This document shows positions 32,134-55,166 of a stretch of DNA of 64,000 nt, piece after piece. The notes beneath the pieces were generated by a model that was given only the letters and a program-made list of their open reading frames with translations, did not search any database and was not told where the DNA came from. The stretch spans positions 62,001 through 126,000 of the forward strand of contig BLLK01000061.1 in NCBI GenBank assembly GCA_021927905.1, in the 5' to 3' direction. This DNA comes from Chaetoceros tenuissimus. Its lineage: Eukaryota > Bacillariophyta > Thalassiosirophyceae > Chaetocerotales > Chaetocerotaceae. The translations under genes were made by a program, and so were the position numbers. Every line of letters begins with the position of its first letter. Within the stretch, counting starts at the first letter, position 1.

Positions 32134-33096
32134 TTACGAATCTCCACGCGATTCTACACCTGCATTACTAACTTGAAATAATGAACCTGAATTCCGAGTT
32201 CCTGAATCACTTGTATCATCGGTAGAAGGATTTGTTTCTTGTGTTTGAGAGCCTTCTGATCCTATGGAAAGTTCATCCATAGAATCCGCCAAAGTATCGG
32301 TACATGAAGTGCCTTGGCCTTCCCAGATAGCTTTATCTCTTCTATAAAGGCTTATCAATATTTCTCTCAGAGTTCTGTAGACTATATCCGCACGCTCCCA
32401 TTTTGGTCCTTCATCACCACCATTGCAAGCCTTGCATTCCTGTACAACATCTATAGGAGTATTCCCCTCCAAATCGGGCCAGACGATAAGCTTCGGATTA
32501 CAAAACAATAGAATCTTTATTGTATGTAAAAGATCCTGGAAATCGTCTACTGTGATACTCATCAATGTATTACCGGATATGTTATCTCTAGTTATCTTCT
32601 TTTCCTTCCGCTTCTTGGTCAACACAAAGGCTCGTTCGGCGTAGGCACTATCGAGATTGGAGTCATTGGCAGCAATTCTATCATTCTCAATAACTTCCAA
32701 CGGATCACAAAGAAATTCTACTACATGATGGAGAGGGGTTTTCCCTTTGTTATCGATAATAGTCGGTACCGCTCCATTTTGAATCAGCAACGAGACTATT
32801 GCTGACGAAGCGCCACATCTGCACGCCATGTGTAGAGGGGTCAAACCTCCGTCATCCCTTATGCTAGTAAGCATAGGATTGCTGTGCACCATCTGGATAA
32901 CTAGCTCTATTGGAGGATTGTGAGCAACGCATATTGAGAGAAGGGATAATCCGAATGGATCAACGAGAGTTAGCTGATGCATTCCTTCTTTTGTTCGGAG
33001 AAACCGATGGAGTGAATCCCATTTTTGCTTTATGATTAGCTTTACTGCCTTGCTATTGTTAGATAGCGTCGTGCTTTTATCTTTCGCTAGCATCAT
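32134..33096 (-). CDS. Ankyrin-repeat protein, paralogue A
   Basis: Predicted 320 residues from a double ATG at 33096. An N-terminal block (IIKQKWDSLHRFLRTKEG) leads into about three to four ankyrin repeats, including DPFGLSLLSICVAHNPPIEL, DGGLTPLHMACRCGASSAIV and NKGKTPLHHVVEF. A later block, LLFCNPKLIVWPDLEGNTPI, ends in WERADIVYRTLREI and SLYRRDKAIWEGQ. The last 60 residues are Ser/Thr/Gly-rich and disordered. The same architecture is present in the neighbour at 34190-35245, so they are tandem duplicates. Ankyrin repeats mediate protein binding; the partner is unknown. This W-containing N-terminal block plus ankyrin design recurs in diatom genomes, from general knowledge rather than a search. 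Confidence 0.85.
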   Translation of the reverse strand: MMLAKDKSTTLSNNSKAVKLIIKQKWDSLHRFLRTKEGMHQLTLVDPFGLSLLSICVAHNPPIELVIQMVHSNPMLTSIRDDGGLTPLHMACRCGASSAIVSLLIQNGAVPTIIDNKGKTPLHHVVEFLCDPLEVIENDRIAANDSNLDSAYAERAFVLTKKRKEKKITRDNISGNTLMSITVDDFQDLLHTIKILLFCNPKLIVWPDLEGNTPIDVVQECKACNGGDEGPKWERADIVYRTLREILISLYRRDKAIWEGQGTSCTDTLADSMDELSIGSEGSQTQETNPSTDDTSDSGTRNSGSLFQVSNAGVESRGDS

Positions 33097-34189
33097 ATCG
33101 TAAGAAATGAAGTTTAGTATCTTCTAGCTAGTAGGGTTTCAGAGGAGAAGAGTGTTTTACTTTCTGGAAGAACGCTGTGAAGTTTCGAGCCTCTTTCGTC
33201 GTCGCTTCGTCTTTTTCGGTGAAATGTAAAAAATGATAAATATTTCTTTTTTGAAAAGTTCCTCTTTTTTTATTTGTATCAATAATCTATCAAACAAAAA
33301 ATTAGAAAACCGAAAAAGTATACTGTTACTGTATATTTATTACGTCTTGTATGTTCCTCTTTCATGAAGATCCCAGTATTTCTTCAGTTGAAGGTTGTAC
33401 AACAGCGCATGATGACCTTCCTTTTACTTCAAAGTATGATGTAGTACGTACATGAAATTTTGACACTTCTTATGATAAAGGAATAAGAAATTCCACCATT
33501 CCACATTTCGATTGAAAGATGACAAGATGACATGCATAAGTATTATGCATGTGTTTTCAGAATGTGATATATTATTTCTTCCTAGAGTAGAGTCAAATTA
33601 TCTTAGGTATTAATATCACATATCGTGGCACATAACATAGTGGTTATCTTATACTCGTACCGTACACAGGTTAAACTTGCACCATGTACGGTATGTATCC
33701 TTGTTGATTAAAGGATAAAAGATACAGTCACAAAGGTAGCTCATTTTTCATTTTTGTGAAACCATCGACTTGCAGTCTTGTAGTCCTATTGGAATGTTAT
33801 AGCTCTAGTGCATTGTACAGATAGTACCATGCATATGTGATACTTCTTAAAAGCTTCTCCTTATTTCTTCTTAAGCAAAGGCTAAACTCCCGTAATGTAA
33901 ACAACTATATTATTTTTTGTAGCTTTTTTGGCAATGATGAAAACGTAAAAGTTTGTCACATTTAGCTTAATACATTTTTTCTAGAGTCAAGATAAAAGTT
34001 GCATATTCTCAACCAGAAGATAAAAGAGTGTTTCAATAATCAATGTATTGAAGATAGTATAAATCTTTGTGGAAAATCCTGTTTTGTTTGCAATGTGTTG
34101 ACGCAGAATCTGATAAAAAGAACCCAAGGTTGAAATAAAAATATGCGTAGTTCAAGTGCTCCTACTATTATAAATTTTGATTGGGATTG
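33097..34189. other. Intergenic between the two ankyrin paralogues
   Basis: About 1.1 kb of AT-rich sequence with no open frame of note. It contains GTAC-rich short elements (agtacgtacat near 33441, tactcgtaccgtac near 33652). I see no trace of a third ankyrin copy or a mobile element. Confidence 0.5.
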
Positions 34190-35245
34190 CTATAGTTCTT
34201 GGCTTCTCCGCCGCTCTTGTATCGCCCGGTTTGTTTGACAAATACTACTAGCTTGAGCGAAAGAAGATGATAATGATGGGATATGATGATTCGGTGCATC
34301 TATTCTAGAGAGACCCGAGACGCCCATAGGTTGTTCGCTTTCCTTTCGGATAGAAGATAAATCCATATCACTGCTTGTTCGATCTGAAAGAGATAGTTTT
34401 GATACGGTAAAATCCAACGATTCATAATCAGAATTAGTACCGCAAGTAGAAGCTACGCCGTCGGAACCACTAATATTTTGATTCTCCCAAATTGCCTTAT
34501 TCCTCCTATAAAGACTAACACTTTTCTCCCTGAGTGCAGTGCATACTATATCAGCGCGTTCCCATTTCGGGCATCCGTGGTAGTCAGCTTTGCAATCTTG
34601 AACTATATCAATTGGTGTATTTTCCAAATTATCGGGCCACAAAACACAATTTGGATTACAAAATAGAAGTAACTTTAAACATTGCAATTTGTCTTGGAAC
34701 TCATCAAGGGTCATGCTCATTATATTTTCACCTTCAGCATTACTTTGCTTCTTTTCTTTACTCTGTCGGTAAGCAAATAAGAAAGTCCTTGAGGAAGCTG
34801 CACTAGGGTCACCGGTTGATGGAGACCCAGTTGAGCACTTGTTTATTTCTAAAGGTTCACAAAGGAATTGTACAGCATAATGCAATGGAGTGCGTCCACT
34901 ATTATCAATAGCATCAGCTTTAGCATGACATTGGACCAACATGGTTACTATCTCTGATGATGCACCACACTTGCATGCCATGTGTAGGGGTGATAAACCC
35001 ATTACATCACTAGAGTTCACTATCGCAGGCTGGATTTCTATTATCTGTGTTAGTATTTCTATAGGGGGATCATGAGCAACGCATATCGAAAGAATCGTTA
35101 ATCCGAAGGGATCAGTTTGTTTCACTTGCTCTTTTCCTTCCCTAGTTCTGAGGAATCTATGCAACGACCTCCATTTTCTCCGAATTATATATTTCACTGA
35201 TTTGCTAGAAACTGATAATGTTTTCTTCGAGCTTAAAATTGACAT
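34190..35245 (-). CDS. Ankyrin-repeat protein, paralogue B
   Basis: Predicted 351 residues from ATG at 35245; a frame a few codons longer would need a GTG start. It is a diverged duplicate of the gene at 32134-33096: IIRRKWRSLHRFLRTREG, DPFGLTILSICVAHDPPIEI, GLSPLHMACKCGASSEIV and NSGRTPLHYAVQFLCEPLEI align block by block, as do WPDNLENTPIDIVQDCKA and WERADIVCTALREKSVSLYR. It differs in a longer Ser-rich C-terminal tail (about 110 residues) and in the linker after the ankyrin repeats. Both copies look intact, so both are probably under selection. There is no targeting signal; it is likely cytosolic or nuclear. Confidence 0.85.
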   Translation of the reverse strand: MSILSSKKTLSVSSKSVKYIIRRKWRSLHRFLRTREGKEQVKQTDPFGLTILSICVAHDPPIEILTQIIEIQPAIVNSSDVMGLSPLHMACKCGASSEIVTMLVQCHAKADAIDNSGRTPLHYAVQFLCEPLEINKCSTGSPSTGDPSAASSRTFLFAYRQSKEKKQSNAEGENIMSMTLDEFQDKLQCLKLLLFCNPNCVLWPDNLENTPIDIVQDCKADYHGCPKWERADIVCTALREKSVSLYRRNKAIWENQNISGSDGVASTCGTNSDYESLDFTVSKLSLSDRTSSDMDLSSIRKESEQPMGVSGLSRIDAPNHHIPSLSSSFAQASSICQTNRAIQERRRSQEL

Positions 35246-36062
35246 CGTATTAGACACCTAATTCTGCCTCTATGGAAAATAGAATTGAGCTGTAAGATGT
35301 GAAGTTTGTATGAAAAGTAGACAAGAACTGAAATTAATTTACTGATGATTCCTGTTCTTGTCCTCTGGGGCTCTGCACTCTGCACCCCAAGGAGAGGGTT
35401 GTTACCTTGTTGCCATCCATTACCACGGAATGGCAGCCAACGCATGAGGACAGAAACGGCAATCGTTTGAGAGCTAGACTTTTATCAACACATACGTACG
35501 ATACAGTAGTAAATCTTTTGTTATTTTGTATTACTCCGCCTTTCTTTTCGAAATGACATTTTCATGAAAATTCTTCATCGAAAAGATCCCTTCTCTGACA
35601 TATAACAGTAATATTGTCTTTTTCGACATTATTTTGAAGACAAATCGTGGTAGATGATCAGAATTCCAGAATTCCAGATTTCCATTGTTTTTCGTGTTTT
35701 CCATTTTCCTTTTTATTCGAAAATATAGAATTTGTCACCAAAGAAACCCAAGACTAGTACTTCCGATCTGGGGATTCAATGCTCATGTAAAGCACTATTT
35801 TAAAAAATGAAGCATATTCCCAAATGAAAGCTGAAACTGCTAGATTCGTCAGCTTCATTATTGCGCAAATATTTTGCGGTTGAGGGCAAAATTGTGCGAC
35901 TAGGTATGTAGAAAGGTTATGAACATTCTTATACCTGAATGTTTGAGCTCCTCGTAGCAATATTTTTATCTAAAGCATTGGAATAGAAGAAGTACAATAG
36001 TATGTAGTAGTATTGAAGTTGTCTACGTATGAGCGGGAAAAGTGAATATAAAAATGGCTAAT
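35246..36062. other. Intergenic, ankyrin B promoter and POLA1 3' side
   Basis: AT-rich, between two minus-strand genes. A 68-codon minus-strand frame at 35960-35754 is unsupported. Nothing else is seen. Confidence 0.5.
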
Positions 36063-49002: not shown

Positions 49003-49386
49003 TTAAAAATCATCATCTTCATCGTCAACGTTTCCCCTTCCGAAAGCAATTTCATCGAGAGGCTGACCAATTCTTGAATACTGTCCTCCATTTGCAATAA
49101 AGTTAGGGCACGGTCTATATGGTTTGATTGGCCACCAACTAAATAAAGGGATAGTAGGGATTCCTCCTAGAATTCTTCCACTTCCATCGCACTTGTCACA
49201 ATTTGGGCATTTGACTGGTTCAGGTGCAGGTGTAGAATCTTCCTCTGCTGCTTCTGCTGTAACATCGTCCGACATGTAAATTGCAGTTTTTCGAACGACT
49301 TGGGAGGGTGTTGCGAATCCCTGTACATCTCCCATCAATCCAAGCGAAAGGATAATTGCCAACGACAGCGCGATAAAGTTTCTCAT
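49003..49386 (-). CDS. Small plastid-targeted protein with DnaJ-type zinc-finger motif
   Basis: Predicted 127 residues from ATG at 49386. The signal peptide ends VQGF-ATPS, a plastid-type site with Phe at +1, followed by a short basic transit-like stretch. The mature part has an acidic spacer, then CPNCDKCDGSGR, one half of a DnaJ-like Cys-rich zinc motif, then SWWPIKPYRPCPNFIANGG and a C-terminal GQPLDEIAFGR before an acidic end. Proteins with single CxxCxGxGR elements act as plastid assembly factors or thiol chaperones (BSD2 is one example), but this one has too few CxxC pairs for a full DnaJ finger. Its start is 462 bases from the divergent start of the large Ala/Pro/Lys-rich plastid protein. 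Confidence 0.8.
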   Translation of the reverse strand: MRNFIALSLAIILSLGLMGDVQGFATPSQVVRKTAIYMSDDVTAEAAEEDSTPAPEPVKCPNCDKCDGSGRILGGIPTIPLFSWWPIKPYRPCPNFIANGGQYSRIGQPLDEIAFGRGNVDDEDDDF

Positions 49387-49848: not shown

Positions 49849-52800
49849 ATGCCACAACAAAGTCGTAAATTGTTGGCTCTTGCAGCTTTCCTTGCATTGG
49901 CATCGGAGAATGTCTCTGCATTCACACCTAATTCACTCAACAACAACAGAGCATTCCCAACTGCTCTTTCTGCAGCTGGAGATGATGTATCCATTGATTA
50001 CGATGCAGCAGCAAAACTTGCATATGATGAATGGAGAAATACCTTTTCCAAGGGAGACTTTTCAGAAGATAAGTTCAAGGCTTTCAAGGGAAACTACGAG
50101 GCATTGACTATTGCTAATGTAAAGGATGCAAAGAAAGCTCGTGAGACTGGAACTGAAGCATCTCAGAAACTTGAATTGAATGAGTATGCTGACATGACTG
50201 TTGAAGAATTTCAGAAAATGCAAGCAGGTGATGTTGCTGAAGAATCTGCTGATGAGCCAGCAAGTCCAATTAAGGCAGCTGTTGATGCACTTGAAGCTCA
50301 AAATGTTGCATCCAGTACACTTAGTGAAGCTGCTGAAGCACTTGCAAAGGAGGAAGAGGTATGTATATATGTCATTTTGTTTTTAATAATGATTGATATA
50401 GTAGTCCCATAATATGGACATGTCATGTGTTTTGATAATATACTGATGATATATTTCTTTTTTAGAAACTTGCTAAAGAGCTTGGATTGGAGAGTGTTGA
50501 TGAACTTGAAGTTGCACTTGATTCCATGGCAGGAGTAGCTCCAGATGGCGGTGAGCTTGATTCCACAAATATTTCTCGTGAAGCAAGAGTACGTGCTGCA
50601 TACATGGATTGGTGTAAAGAGAATGGAAAAGAGAGTGACGAAGCTCGTTTTGCAACATTTTCATCAAACTATCTAGCAATGGAGGCTTACGCAAAGGAGA
50701 ATGGAAAGACTATGCAGTTGAATAAATATGCTGATTGTACTGAGGAGGAATATCTTGCTTTGACTAGTGCGGCGAAGACTGAGGAGAAGAAAGAAGAACC
50801 AGTTGCAGAGGCACCAAAGGAAGAAAAGAAGGAGGAAGAACCAGCAGTTGATGTTTCTATTCCATATAACGCAGCAGCAATGCTAGCATATGAAGCAAGT
50901 GATAAAAAGATGGATTTTGCAGCGTTTGAAAAGAAATATTTGGCAGATGCAGTAGAACTTGTCAAGTCAAAGAAGGCAGCAGCTGACGAAAAGATTGCAG
51001 CAAAGAAGGCTCCAGCACCAGCTCCAAAGGTTGAAAAGAAGGAGGCTGCTCCAGCACCAGCTCCGAAGGTTGAAAAGAAGGAGGCTCCAGCACCAGCTGC
51101 AAAGGCACCTGCTAAGAAGCCAGTGGCAAAGAAGGCACCAGCTCCTGCACCTGCTCCTGCGAAGAAGACCGCTGCGGAGATTGAGAAGGAGAAGCAAAAG
51201 CGTCAAGCTGATCAAGAAAAGGCACGAGCAGCAGCAGCTGCTGAAGCAGAGGCTGCAGCAATCGCTGCTGCAAGAGAAATTGCAGAAAAAGAAGCAGCAC
51301 AGGTTGCAAAGAGACGTGAGCTTGATGCTCAAGCAGCAGAGTTGGAGCGTCAAAAGGCGAAGAAGGCAGCAGCAGCTGCTCCAAAACCAGTAGCAAAACC
51401 AGCTCCAGTAGAGGCGAAGAAGGAAGCACCAAAACCAGCTCCAGTGGAGGCGAAGAAGGAAACACCAGCTCCAGTAAAGGCTGAAAAGAAAGAAGCAGCT
51501 CCAGCTGGAGGAATCTTTGGAAATATTTTTGGAGGTGCTCCTAAAAAGCCTGCAGCTCCAAAGGTTGACGACAGTGCAGCAAAGGTTGCAGAAGCGAAGG
51601 CTGCTGCAGAGGCAAAGGCAGCTGCAGAGGCTGAAGCTAAGGCAAAGGCTGAAGCAGAAGCTAAGGCAGCAGCAGAGAAGGCAGCTGCAGAAGCTGAAGC
51701 TGCGAAGGCTAAGGCTGCTGCAGAAGCAGAAGCTGCGAAGGCTAAGGCTGCTGCAGAGGCGGCGAAGAAGAAGGAAGCAGCGAAACCAGCTGCTCCACTT
51801 TTCGGTGGATTCTTTGCAGCAGAGAAGAAGGATACTCCACCTGCACCAACTCCTGCTCCAAAGCCAGTTGCAGAGCCAGTTGCGGCTAAAAAGGTTGAAG
51901 TCGATGTCGCTGATCCAGTAAGCGATGCATTTGCATCATTCTTTGGAACCAAGTCTTCTACTCCAGTCGAAGAGAAGACACCAGAGCCTGAACCTGTTCC
52001 AGCAAAGGCACCAACCCCTGCTCCAGCACCAGCTTTCGGCGGATTTTTTGGAGCAAAGCCAGCTGAAGCAAAGAAGGAAACTCCAGCTCCTGAAAAGGCT
52101 GCAGTTGCGAAGGCTGCACAAAAGACTCTCGAGTCTGCACCAAAGAAGGGAGGAACTATTTCTCTTGCATCATTCTTCACATTCGGAAAGAAGGAAGTTA
52201 AGCCACCTCCAAAGCCACCTGTGCTCAGTAACTGGTATAAAAATAATGACGGTTCCATCACTGGAGAAATTTCTGGATCAACTGCTTTTGAGGAGGGAGA
52301 ACTTGTTACTACTTCCAAGATTGACGGCCCAGCGACCAAGGATACTGTTGTAACAACTGTGTCTGGATCAAGATACTTTTTGGATCAAAATGTAGGAAAG
52401 AAGCCATTCTTCCTATTTGGAGCACCAAAGGGTAAGGCAGCGGAGCCACCAGCTCCTGCTCCAACCCCAGCTCCTGTCGCAGCAAAGAAGCCAGTAGCAA
52501 AGGCTCCAGTTGCAAAGAAGCCAGTAGCAAAGGCTCCAGCACCAGCACCTGCAACACCTGCACCAAAGCCAGCAGGTTTCAACTTCTTTGGAGGAGCTGC
52601 AAAGCCAGCTGCACCAAAGGCTGCTCCAGCTGCTCCTGCTGTTCAAAAGACTGTTACAATGAAGAAACCAGTTGCAAAGGCTCCAGCACCTACACCTGCA
52701 CCTGCCACACCAAAGAAGCCAGCTGGTTTCAATATCTTTGGAGGAGCTGCTAAGCCAAAGGCTGCTGCTCCAGCTGCTCAAAAAACTGTCGCAGTACAGA

Positions 52801-53069
52801 AACCAGCTACAGTGCAAAGAAGAGGAACTGTTACCCTTGGATCTGCACAAGCTAAGTCTATCGCTAAGAAGGCTGCTCCAGTAAAGAATGACGGAATCCC
52901 AGTACTTAAGAACTGGAAGCAAGAAGCTGATGGAGCTATTACCGGAAATATCACTAACTCTAAGGTATTCCGCAACGGACAGAAGATTACCACATCTCCA
53001 GTTCCTAAGGGAGCTAAGGCTGGAAGTGTCGTAACAACCAGCTCTGGCAGCAAGTACCGTCTGGGCTAA
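49849..53069 (+). CDS. Plastid-targeted Ala/Pro/Lys-rich multivalent protein with I29-like and repeated C-terminal domains
   Basis: Two exons, 49849-50358 and 50466-53069, joined across a 107-base GT-AG intron; the product is 1037 residues. The N-terminus has a signal peptide ending NVSAF-TPN, the plastid signal. Two domains resemble the I29 cathepsin propeptide (EWRNTFSKGDFSEDKFKAFK ... NEYADMTVEEF at about 60-121; MDWCKENGKESDEARFATF ... NKYADCTEEEY at about 217-266), and a third, degenerate copy lies near 304-335. From about 350 to the end the chain is Ala/Pro/Lys/Glu-rich and disordered, with helical Ala/Glu/Lys runs. It is punctuated by eight short aromatic motifs near residues 518, 615, 660, 694, 736, 818, 875 and 925 (IFGNIFGG, LFGGFFA, FASFFGTK, FGGFFGAK, SFFTFGKK, FFLFGAPK, FNFFGGAAKP, FNIFGGAAKP). 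A 55-residue domain occurs twice (about 755-810 and 983-1037). Function is unknown; a multivalent scaffold is my inference. Confidence 0.88.
51001..52800 (+). repeat. Low-complexity Ala/Pro/Lys coding region with eight aromatic motifs
   Basis: Codons for Ala, Pro, Lys and Glu dominate (gctccagcacca, aagaaggc, gcagcagc). Because of this, long spurious frames are open in the other two forward frames and on the reverse strand. The repeat units are irregular, 34 to 97 residues between aromatic motifs. The last two motif units (near 52570 and 52720) are the most alike, pointing to recent duplication. Confidence 0.8.
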
Positions 53070-53138: not shown

Positions 53139-54848
53139 CTATCTAGGTAAATTAGCTTCTTCAGCTGTGAGACCGGCATATTTTGGTAATTGTACAGGTT
53201 CTCCTTTTGCAGCCATATCCTTTAAATAGTACTCGAAGGCAGACATATCACCAGCGTCAATTGCCAGTGGATCATAGTCTAATATCTCATCAGGTAAAAC
53301 TTGCTTTGCAACCTCCATTCCACGACCTCTTTCATTTGGATCTTCTACGAGAGCATCATATGCTCTTGCAAATCCTCTTCGGACACCATCAAAGATTTCT
53401 TCTCTTCTTGTTTCTAGCCTTGTCACTTCTTTCGATCCCGGAGGAACAGCTATTGCCATCATACTTTTATCACCATCACCCCTTGTAGCTTCATTCAGCT
53501 CGAGTACAAGTTCAGCGTAAATTCTCTTCTGACCATGTCTTCGCATATATTTATAAATGTTTTTCAGTTTGTTTTTCTTCTTGAAAAATCTTCTAAAGAT
53601 TAGTTTTTCGAAAATAGAAGTTTTTCCCGTGACATCAGTTCCATCTGGACGTGATCTAAGAACAACAACATCAGTTGCACCTTCTCTCAATGCTGTTCGG
53701 AATGGAAGTGGTTCAAAAATCAATGCATCCGCAAGCGGCTCGACACCATCTCTATCTACATCATTACCTACAAAGAATTTCGGTGTATTGGTTTTGCTTG
53801 CATTGGCATCATAATTCATAAGAGGTCCTGCAATTCCTGGCAAGAGACATGAACCATGTGCAGCATTTGCAAACTCTTCGAGATTGTTGAAACCACCATT
53901 GGCCATGTCAAATACTACCGACTTTTCCGATTTCAGTCCACTTGCTACAACTTTGATTGGTTGCAGTTTACTCATTTCTACAAACTTTTCCCAATTTAGC
54001 TTTTTATCCTTTTGCAAGCAATCCTTCAATAAAAAGTCTAAATTCAAAACTGGTTTACCAAAGTCTCTTCTTATCAAAACATCTTTAATCAATCGTGGAT
54101 CCAATAGTCCAAGTCCAAGAGTACGAAGTAATCTATTGAAGTATTTGTAAGCAACAACGTAATAAGAATCTATTCCATGGTAGTAACCTATACGTACTCA
54201 CCTCTTGCTATCAATAAATCGTTTACCAGCAGTTGTCAAACTATCGTAATAAATTTCAGGCCCAAACCATGGCAACTGCCTTGTATTAAAGTAACTTCCA
54301 ATAATAGTCCCTGCACTGCTACCATAAATGACATCGAAAGTATTTTCCAAGCCAAGATAATACAAGCAACCAACCATACCAGCAGTAACACAGCCACGCA
54401 TTCCTCCACCCTCTACAATGAGTGCTACTTTACGTCCATCCTCTCGTATTTGATCTACAGGAGTCAATGGACTTTTATTTCTCCTACGATCATGTAAAAG
54501 TTTCAAAACGGGATGATAAAAGTCTGTATCTTTCGATCCAAGGATTTGTGTATCGCCCTTTACTGAAAGTTGTTTCAAGAGGGTATCGTAATCAATGTCT
54601 CCATTCTTTTTTCGAAATCTTTCTTGTTTATCTGCAAAATAGTCATCGAGTTCCTGCTTGGAAGTGATTTCATAGACTGGTAATTCTTTCTTCTTCTTGG
54701 AAGTAGCATGAAGTACAAGATTCGAAGATTGCGTAGTTGAGAATCTTTTTGAACTTGTTGGACTAGGATGTGTTTGGAATGCCAATGATGATGTCGTGAC
54801 ACATGACAGTCCAAAGAAAGCTAGACAGAGACTCCTTGTGAACCTCAT
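53139..54848 (-). CDS. Plastid-targeted patatin-like phospholipase
   Basis: Two exons, 54848-54202 and 54132-53139, joined across a 69-base GT-AG intron that splits an Arg codon; the product is 546 residues. The signal peptide ends SSLAF-QT, a plastid-type site. The patatin core has the oxyanion loop GGGMRG (147-152), the nucleophile elbow GSSAG with Ser178, and a downstream DRDGVEPLADALIF with the likely dyad Asp, followed by ALREGATDVVVLRSRP, as in bacterial-type patatins. These enzymes hydrolyse acyl chains from phospho- or galactolipids. In the plastid it may remodel membrane lipids or feed triacylglycerol synthesis. Its stop is 69 bases from the stop of the converging Ala/Pro/Lys-rich gene. 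Confidence 0.9.
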
Positions 54849-55166
54849 GATTCTTTTGTATATCCTTCTCCTGTTCTAGATGGTTGGTATGAACAGTAGA
54901 CTGTTGAATGTAGAATTGAATTGAAGAAGCAATTCAATTGGTTTCGTTATGACGAACGAGGAGAGGTATCTTTTCTTCGTACCATAGTAAGTACGTACAC
55001 ACAAACATAGATTTTCTTTCAAGACACCCTATTCATGAAATGTCGTAGAGACAACCTAACTTAAAAAAGATACTTTTCTCAACTTTTCAGTTTGATTGTA
55101 TCTATGTATCTATTACATAGTCTCATCTATTCACAATAATAACTAATTTTGAAACAAAAAGATTTC
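54849..55166. other. Divergent promoter region
   Basis: Lies between the patatin-like gene (-) and the rhodanese gene (+); both encode plastid-type presequences. A GTAC-rich element (agtacgtacac) lies near 54990. Nothing else is seen. Confidence 0.5.

Follow-up and report, generated by a model that had tools for sequence, protein, structure and literature searches.

Gene structure and presequence

A 64,000-nucleotide stretch of the diatom Chaetoceros tenuissimus (assembly GCA_021927905.1, contig BLLK01000061.1, positions 62,001 to 126,000 of the forward strand; hereafter the window, whose own numbering is used throughout) carries a gene at 49849-53069 (+) that encodes a candidate multivalent scaffold of the plastid stroma. 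The protein combines eight short phenylalanine motifs, set in a low-complexity chain, with I29-like repeats and a duplicated beta domain that our searches found in phages. The gene is real: from the start codon at 49849 to the stop codon at 53069, two exons separated by one intron encode 1037 residues. An earlier note, made from the letters of this DNA alone, had given exactly these limits.

Exon 1: 49849..50358, + strand; 510 nucleotides, residues 1-170, including the presequence (residues 1-24, SA/FTP) and the first I29-like repeat
Intron: 50359-50465, + strand; 107 nucleotides, GT..AG, frame kept
Exon 2: 50466..53069, + strand; residues 171-1037 and the stop codon

The N-terminus, MPQQSRKLLALAAFLALASENVSA/FTP, was judged by eye to be a signal peptide followed by phenylalanine, which we take to be the diatom plastid 'ASAFAP' signal. 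The plastid presequence proposed in the earlier note would correspond to this SA/FTP start, which looks diatom-type by eye, and the product is probably a chloroplast protein. The protein is basic (isoelectric point, pI, 9.2). Its I29-like repeats and two C-terminal domains (residues 754-810 and 981-1037) were absent from the earlier description.

Phenylalanine motifs

The low-complexity part, defined here as residues 345-751 and 813-979 (574 residues), contains 22 Phe as its only aromatic residues, with no Trp and no Tyr. These form exactly eight clusters of two or three, and none stands alone. Among 20,000 shuffles of the same 574 residues, the mean is 2.6 clusters and 16.3 lone aromatics; 0.015% of them reach eight or more clusters, and each has at least one singleton. 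The cluster centres are spaced 94, 44, 35, 46, 77, 58, and 52 residues apart. The eight motifs claimed earlier are therefore present in a sharper form, since every aromatic of the chain belongs to one of them. Cluster analysis places them as follows.

Motif 1: 51516..51545, + strand; FGNIFGGAPK
Motif 2: 51801..51830, + strand; FGGFFAAEKK
Motif 3: 51930..51959, + strand; FASFFGTKSS
Motif 4: 52035..52064, + strand; FGGFFGAKPA
Motif 5: 52164..52193, + strand; LASFFTFGKK
Motif 6: 52404..52433, + strand; PFFLFGAPKG
Motif 7: 52575..52604, + strand; GFNFFGGAAK, sharing a tandem unit with motif 8
Motif 8: 52725..52754, + strand; GFNIFGGAAK, sharing a tandem unit with motif 7

By eye, the consensus is approximately F-x-x-[FI]-F-G-x-x-K, from which some motifs deviate at some positions.

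Motifs and linkers might both be products of repeat slippage that serve no specific role. The gene is rich in tandem DNA repeats, and motifs 7 and 8 lie within a tandem unit in which replacements do not spare the motif. Yet the family that pairs motifs 7 and 8 is the only one of 13 DNA repeat families to cover motif cores, the aromatics are confined entirely to eight clusters, and the motifs vary in synonymous codons. With the tandem pair left out, synonymous codons differ in 20 of 65 motif-pair comparisons at identical Phe or Gly positions, a count that falls below the expectation under random codon choice and comes from pairs that are not independent. These differences indicate that motif similarity is not only a matter of recent DNA duplication. 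Low-complexity drift is a very improbable source of the pattern.

The low-complexity chain

The linkers between motifs are rich in Ala, Pro, and Lys. Gln and Asn account for only 16 of the 574 residues, so the chain is not prion-like by composition. Net charge per residue is +0.16 in residues 813-979 (1% Glu) and +0.17 in residues 349-417, and between 0.01 and 0.07 in the other low-complexity parts. Single-sequence AlphaFold2 predicts two long helices, with the predicted local distance difference test (pLDDT) given per 10-residue block.

Ala/Glu/Lys/Arg helix 1, long, predicted: 51171..51368, + strand; residues about 406-471, pLDDT 52-82
Ala/Glu/Lys helix 2, long, predicted: 51594..51737, + strand; residues 547-594, pLDDT 53-61

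The earlier description of about 650 disordered residues is not borne out as worded. The stretch includes a folded beta domain (residues 754-810) as well as the two helices, and measures of disorder are mixed. The observation as a whole is thus borne out in part, the gene, its coordinates, and the Phe motifs standing.

The same chain could be a flexible tether or adaptor that forms no condensate, joining the I29-like and phage-type modules much as the linkers of E2 acyltransferases do, while the Phe motifs act as single docking sites for a chaperone, a translocon, or a membrane. An E2 dihydrolipoyllysine succinyltransferase is the only solved chain matched by the exon-2 protein at E<=0.01 (E 0.0047). 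This match spans residues 332-427, from the first Ala/Pro/Lys linker into the beginning of helix 1, and most likely reflects composition. The motifs are short and most are followed by Lys, which may recall peripheral membrane-contact motifs. Against a tether, the protein has eight near-equivalent motifs and excludes aromatics fully from the rest of the chain, which suggests multivalency over a single contact. A simple tether is unlikely.

I29-like repeats

Three repeats resembling the inhibitor I29 domain of cathepsin propeptides lie near the start of the protein.

N1, I29 (cathepsin propeptide)-like repeat: 49981..50226, + strand; residues 45-126, LNEYADMTVEEF hallmark, Pfam PF08246 with the domain alone at E 9.4e-4 and 19.9 bits
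N2, second I29-like repeat: 50562..50774, + strand; residues 203-273, LNKYADCTEEEY hallmark, Pfam PF08246 at E 3.9e-4 and 21.1 bits
N3, partial copy of N1: 50847..51005, + strand; residues 298-350, 75% identical over 48 nucleotides

With exon 1 as query, the N1 match to PF08246 has E 0.0041. The scores (17.8, 19.9, and 21.1 bits) stay below the curated Inhibitor_I29 cut-off of 24.4 bits, and two repeats match independently at E 0.0004-0.004. Within the window, N1 and N2 detect each other at E 2.6e-4, and N3 joins them as an incomplete third copy at E 0.005. In the alignment, N1 and N2 both display by eye an [RK]F-x-x-F-x-x-N core, which we take to be of the ERFNIN type, and an LN-x-YAD-x-T-x-EE-[FY] hallmark; N3 lacks the hallmark and by itself matches nothing in Pfam. 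When all three repeats are combined in one profile, it finds triticain alpha first (E 6e-4), then Crammer (0.14) and a cysteine protease (0.22) among six rows at E<=10, the others being FBSB (0.54), cathepsin L1 (1.6), and the unrelated PsbQ (5.8).

The core and hallmark of two repeats liken them to I29 propeptide inhibitors of the Crammer type and to cathepsin and triticain propeptides. Unlike these, the diatom repeats score below the Pfam cut-off, sit behind a plastid-type presequence, and are followed by no peptidase domain in Pfam at E<=1 in either exon. A papain-type protease precursor is not supported, as neither exon matches peptidase C1 at that threshold. Among the papers searched, none links Inhibitor I29 with diatom chloroplasts, and the one that came up for diatoms and cathepsin propeptide inhibitors concerns oomycetes; tblastn confirmed no relative of the exon-1 protein in viral contigs.

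A C-terminal beta domain shared with phages

The second kind of module occurs twice, once midway along the protein and once as its last 57 residues; the two 57-residue copies are 47% identical.

C1, phage-type beta domain (phrog_8840, near DUF6957), copy 1: 52215..52385, + strand; residues 754-810, from profile and fold searches
C2, phage-type beta domain, copy 2: 52896..53066, + strand; residues 981-1037, the end of the protein, from profile searches

AlphaFold2, given the sequences of both copies, yields a five-strand model of C1 with a mean pLDDT of 90.8; two of the five models were confident, and three stayed near 50. Both copies match phrog_8840, a family of unknown function, over positions 3-57 (C1, E 0.01; C2, E 0.0027). 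Where the two align, C2 is 36.8% identical to protein 137 of Rhizobium phage RL38J1 (E 0.3), and this phage protein (L016:2279-2683) itself holds the domain twice in tandem. Counting its own record and duplicates, protein 137 has matches in 46 records of phages, which are those of Rhizobium (17), Caulobacter (14), Vibrio (9), Pseudomonas (2), Sinorhizobium (2), and Agrobacterium (2).

Profile comparison strengthens the relationship. Twelve domains from 10 of the 46 records (RL38J1 and nine others) were aligned with the IMG/VR locus L014 to give 13 rows. Nine of the ten records are classed as Caudoviricetes, and Caulobacter phage RBC57 is classed only as Viruses. L014 had been chosen by a pattern modelled on the domain of the diatom protein; it was kept in the alignment and excluded from the 12-domain test profile, and loci L012 and L017 were left out of the alignment. 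Between the 13 rows, L014 included, and the diatom pair, hhalign gives a probability of 97.1 (P 5.7e-11). The 12-domain profile, built without L014, scores 22.3 and 29.2 bits on the isolated copies, whereas the highest score in 4,000 shuffles is 8.4 bits. From the window's 670 open reading frames (ORFs) with 40 or more codons, hmmsearch with this profile returns the present ORF at E 6.3e-12 and the next at 3.7. Positions common to C1, C2, and the phage proteins run through the domain from end to end (L-x-N-W, G-x-I, F-x-x-G-x-x-[VI]-x-T-S, and V-x-T-x-x-S-x-Y-x-L).

Fold searches point the same way. In BFVD, the best match has E 8.5e-4 and is the sole one at <=0.001 among 187 at <=10; of the first 19 rows, the 11 that are named are all phage proteins. 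Among these, a 135-residue protein of Rhizobium phage AF3, presumably that phage's relative of the RL38J1 protein, aligns with a template modelling (TM) score of 0.75 and a root-mean-square deviation of 2.1. Pfam PF22275 (DUF6957) is matched by 12 of the 13 phage rows at E<=10 (best 1.4e-6); searched directly, C1 and C2 give no DUF6957 listing at E<=10. Taken together, the profile and model comparisons place C1 and C2 with the phrog_8840 family, near DUF6957. Like its phage relatives, the diatom protein has the whole domain, in more than one copy as RL38J1 does. Unlike them, it carries the domain as a module of a 1037-residue plastid-type protein, whereas nine annotated phage members stand alone at 69-174 residues.

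'Phage-type' denotes where the domain was found and not its origin, because cellular relatives were sought only in prokaryote contigs and plasmids. Within that scope there were none, either with diatom queries in prokaryote contigs and plasmids or with the phage protein in plasmids; C1 and the RL38J1 protein each drew no match among plasmids. The alignment of the C domain gave no tblastn-confirmed relative in viral contigs and prokaryote genomes. Thirteen of the 15 IMG/VR loci picked by pattern (L001-L011, L013, and L015) hold no convincing domain beyond the pattern itself, and at E<=0.01 the L014 protein matches nothing in the phage collection. When the three records that carry L014, L012, and L016 were searched for DUF6957 together with 14 control genomes, nothing was returned, a result that shows no absence. 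Among the papers searched, none concerns DUF6957.

RL38J1 gene 137 and its relatives (L018-L026) encode small phage proteins with a W/G/TS/S-Y-LG domain, sometimes in tandem. This phage family matches seven PHROGs at E<=6e-5 and nine at E<=0.1. In Agrobacterium phage Atu_ph04, the same domain lies within an unannotated stretch (L026:362-547).

Solved structures offer no comparable match. A PDB fold search of the C domain places none of 154 hits at <=0.001, and its best hit, by Foldseek, is the SANTA domain of M18BP1 (E 0.16). SANTA motifs are given as VxLxDW at the start and GFx7FxxGFPxxW at the end in the portion of the source drawn on here (PMC9210943). The diatom domain offers only the L-x-N-W start; the end motif is absent, C2 ending the protein, and Pfam SANTA matches neither C1, C2, nor any of the 13 phage members. 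A SANTA identity was rejected on these grounds. Matches to MreC (E 0.099) and a glutaredoxin-domain model (E 0.069) were taken as noise. PDB sequence matches of the C domain, interferon gamma among them, are short or weak, and the phage profile's PDB matches 'Cake' and 'Scone' are repeat proteins that sum weak matches of ~18 residues.

The fold result bears on a further possibility, that the protein organizes the plastid nucleoid or other nucleic acid through Lys/Ala/Pro tails of the H1 type and a beta domain near a chromatin-protein fold. The positive charge of residues 813-979 and 349-417 would suit such a role, as would the SANTA domain's place at the top of the solved-fold matches. That match is not significant and lacks Pfam support, and the remaining low-complexity parts are near neutral. 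A nucleic-acid organizer is improbable.

A proposed multivalent stromal scaffold

The arrangement of the protein argues for a diatom nuclear gene encoding a multivalent stromal scaffold in which Phe motifs would be the stickers and folded modules the docking sites, a reading that we favour at about even chances. The layout is of the sticker-and-spacer type: a mildly basic, low-complexity chain with every aromatic placed in one of eight similar motifs. Support also comes from the spacing of 35-94 residues and the pI, which resemble those of known linkers, and from the repetition of both the I29-like and beta modules in one chain. The Phe motifs might act as stickers that bind one another, in the manner of FG-type cohesive motifs, or that bind a site repeated on a single plastid client. 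Linkers and helices would set the distances between motifs, and the folded modules near the start, middle, and end would dock other partners. The protein might thereby cross-link clients, whether Rubisco, thylakoid, or other, into a condensate or a loose network. The earlier note's interpretation survives in part, as a sticker-and-spacer plastid scaffold, on the strength of clustered Phe at linker-like spacing, Ala/Pro/Lys linkers, a basic pI, and a presequence read by eye.

Several observations weigh against a scaffold. The pattern [FL]x(1-2)[FIL]F[GAT] occurs eight times versus 0.05 in shuffles, and it was devised after the motifs had been seen, as the cluster count was not. Sticker density is modest, at eight motifs in about 400 residues. 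Codons at shared Phe and Gly positions are alike in 45 of 65 comparisons versus about half by chance, and this slight excess suggests that the motifs may in part descend from common DNA. The only internal proxy for conservation of motif versus linker is the tandem unit that holds motifs 7 and 8. In its two copies replacements are equally frequent in both parts, at 2 of 15 codons in the motif and 4 of 28 in the linker; indels all fall in the linker and none in the motif. No tblastn-confirmed relative of the exon-2 protein was found in viral contigs or prokaryote genomes, a search that included no diatom collection.

Disorder of the chain is likewise only moderately supported. Charge-hydropathy values are clearly negative for residues 349-417 (-0.26), slightly so for residues 487-540 around motif 1 (-0.06), and 0.02 to 0.12 both for the two Ala-rich parts and for residues 611-751 and 813-979, where motifs 2-8 lie. 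The single-sequence exon-2 model is low over most of its length (mean pLDDT 46.3). This is weak evidence of disorder, as one sequence was used and the C domains also score low in the same model (33-52 by block).

A narrower possibility is that the protein is a pyrenoid Rubisco linker, whose Phe motifs would each bind one site of red-type Rubisco and whose chain would condense the enzyme as EPYC1 and PYCO1 do. The plastid-type presequence, low-complexity chain, and basic pI suit this role. Known linkers have repeated elements 20-120 residues apart (Barrett et al., 2024; PMC11570498), a range within which the eight Phe clusters fall, their part as stickers being conjectural. According to the text drawn on here, no homologue of PYCO1 turned up for its authors in the other algae sequenced (Oh et al., 2023; PMC10288592), and pyrenoid linkers from different algae have no sequence in common (PMC13159521). 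Another diatom may accordingly need its own linker.

The resemblance to PYCO1 of Phaeodactylum tricornutum lies in general features, as far as the available part of its description goes. Both are diatom proteins with a plastid-type presequence, mostly low-complexity and basic, and in both aromatic motifs recur at some tens of residues. PYCO1 has tandem repeats of about 80 residues, stickers of Trp (KWSP) and Tyr (GTGYNP), and a prion-like composition (Oh et al., 2023; PMC10288592). Unlike PYCO1, the present protein has Phe motifs only, hardly any Gln or Asn, long predicted helices, and folded modules. As these motifs are given there, both the KWSP(R) sticker and the GTGYNP tandem-repeat motif are absent from the whole protein, which places it outside the PYCO1 family proper.

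The protein looks like EPYC1 and CsLinker in its repeated elements and their spacing and, with only partial support here, in being largely disordered. It differs from them in that, in the part of the source drawn on, their Rubisco-binding repeats are helices (Barrett et al., 2024; PMC11570498), whereas here there are short Phe motifs and added folded domains. The passages of PMC10288592 and PMC11570498 considered here describe no folded modules of this kind for PYCO1 or the other linkers. The lack of Trp and Tyr in the low-complexity part, with its little Gln and Asn, also speaks against a linker, as does the base rate: a generic filter passed 13 Chlorella proteins, of which one was the linker (PMC11570498). 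The criteria of that filter are compared here, and the filter itself was not run on this protein. A Rubisco linker is unlikely.

Up to 20% of global CO2 fixation is attributed to diatoms, and linker candidates from other diatoms are wanted because PYCO1 lacks a detectable homologue in other sequenced algae, as reported in the part of the study cited (PMC10288592). The gene provides one such candidate, concrete and open to testing, and its motif is defined. Behind a plastid-type presequence, the protein also combines an inhibitor-propeptide fold that has no protease with a domain of unknown function that is known here from phage proteins. Should the C domain serve in binding, it may also account for the role of the small phage proteins. 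The boldest version is a lineage-specific scaffold in which Phe-Phe-Gly stickers, with the phage-shared domain and protease-propeptide folds as docking modules, would organize a diatom pyrenoid or stromal condensate. This is a long shot; if true, it would add a further diatom linker chemistry beside PYCO1 and a phage-type part to the carbon-fixing machinery.

Neighbouring genes

The divergent neighbour at 49003-49386 (-), whose start codon lies about 460 nucleotides from that of the studied gene, encodes 127 residues with a plastid-like presequence by eye (VQG/FATP) and a zinc-finger-like stretch (CPNCDKCDGSGR). It has no Pfam match at E<=10, and its identification as a Rubisco chaperone, presumably BSD2-like, was dropped for want of Pfam or PDB support. 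Downstream, 54198-54875 (-) encodes a patatin-like phospholipase fragment (Pfam E 1.4e-7) with a plastid-type presequence by eye (SLA/FQT).

No tRNA or Rfam match occurs in the 64-kb window. The window also has a fucoxanthin-chlorophyll protein (FCP) gene; among solved structures, its best matches are Lhcq/FCPI chains, presumably diatom entries. Two similar neighbouring ORFs at 32134-33123 (-) and 34190-35257 (-), with the starts KLIIKQKWDSLHRFL and KYIIRRKWRSLHRFL, look ankyrin-like by eye and are apparently tandem paralogues.

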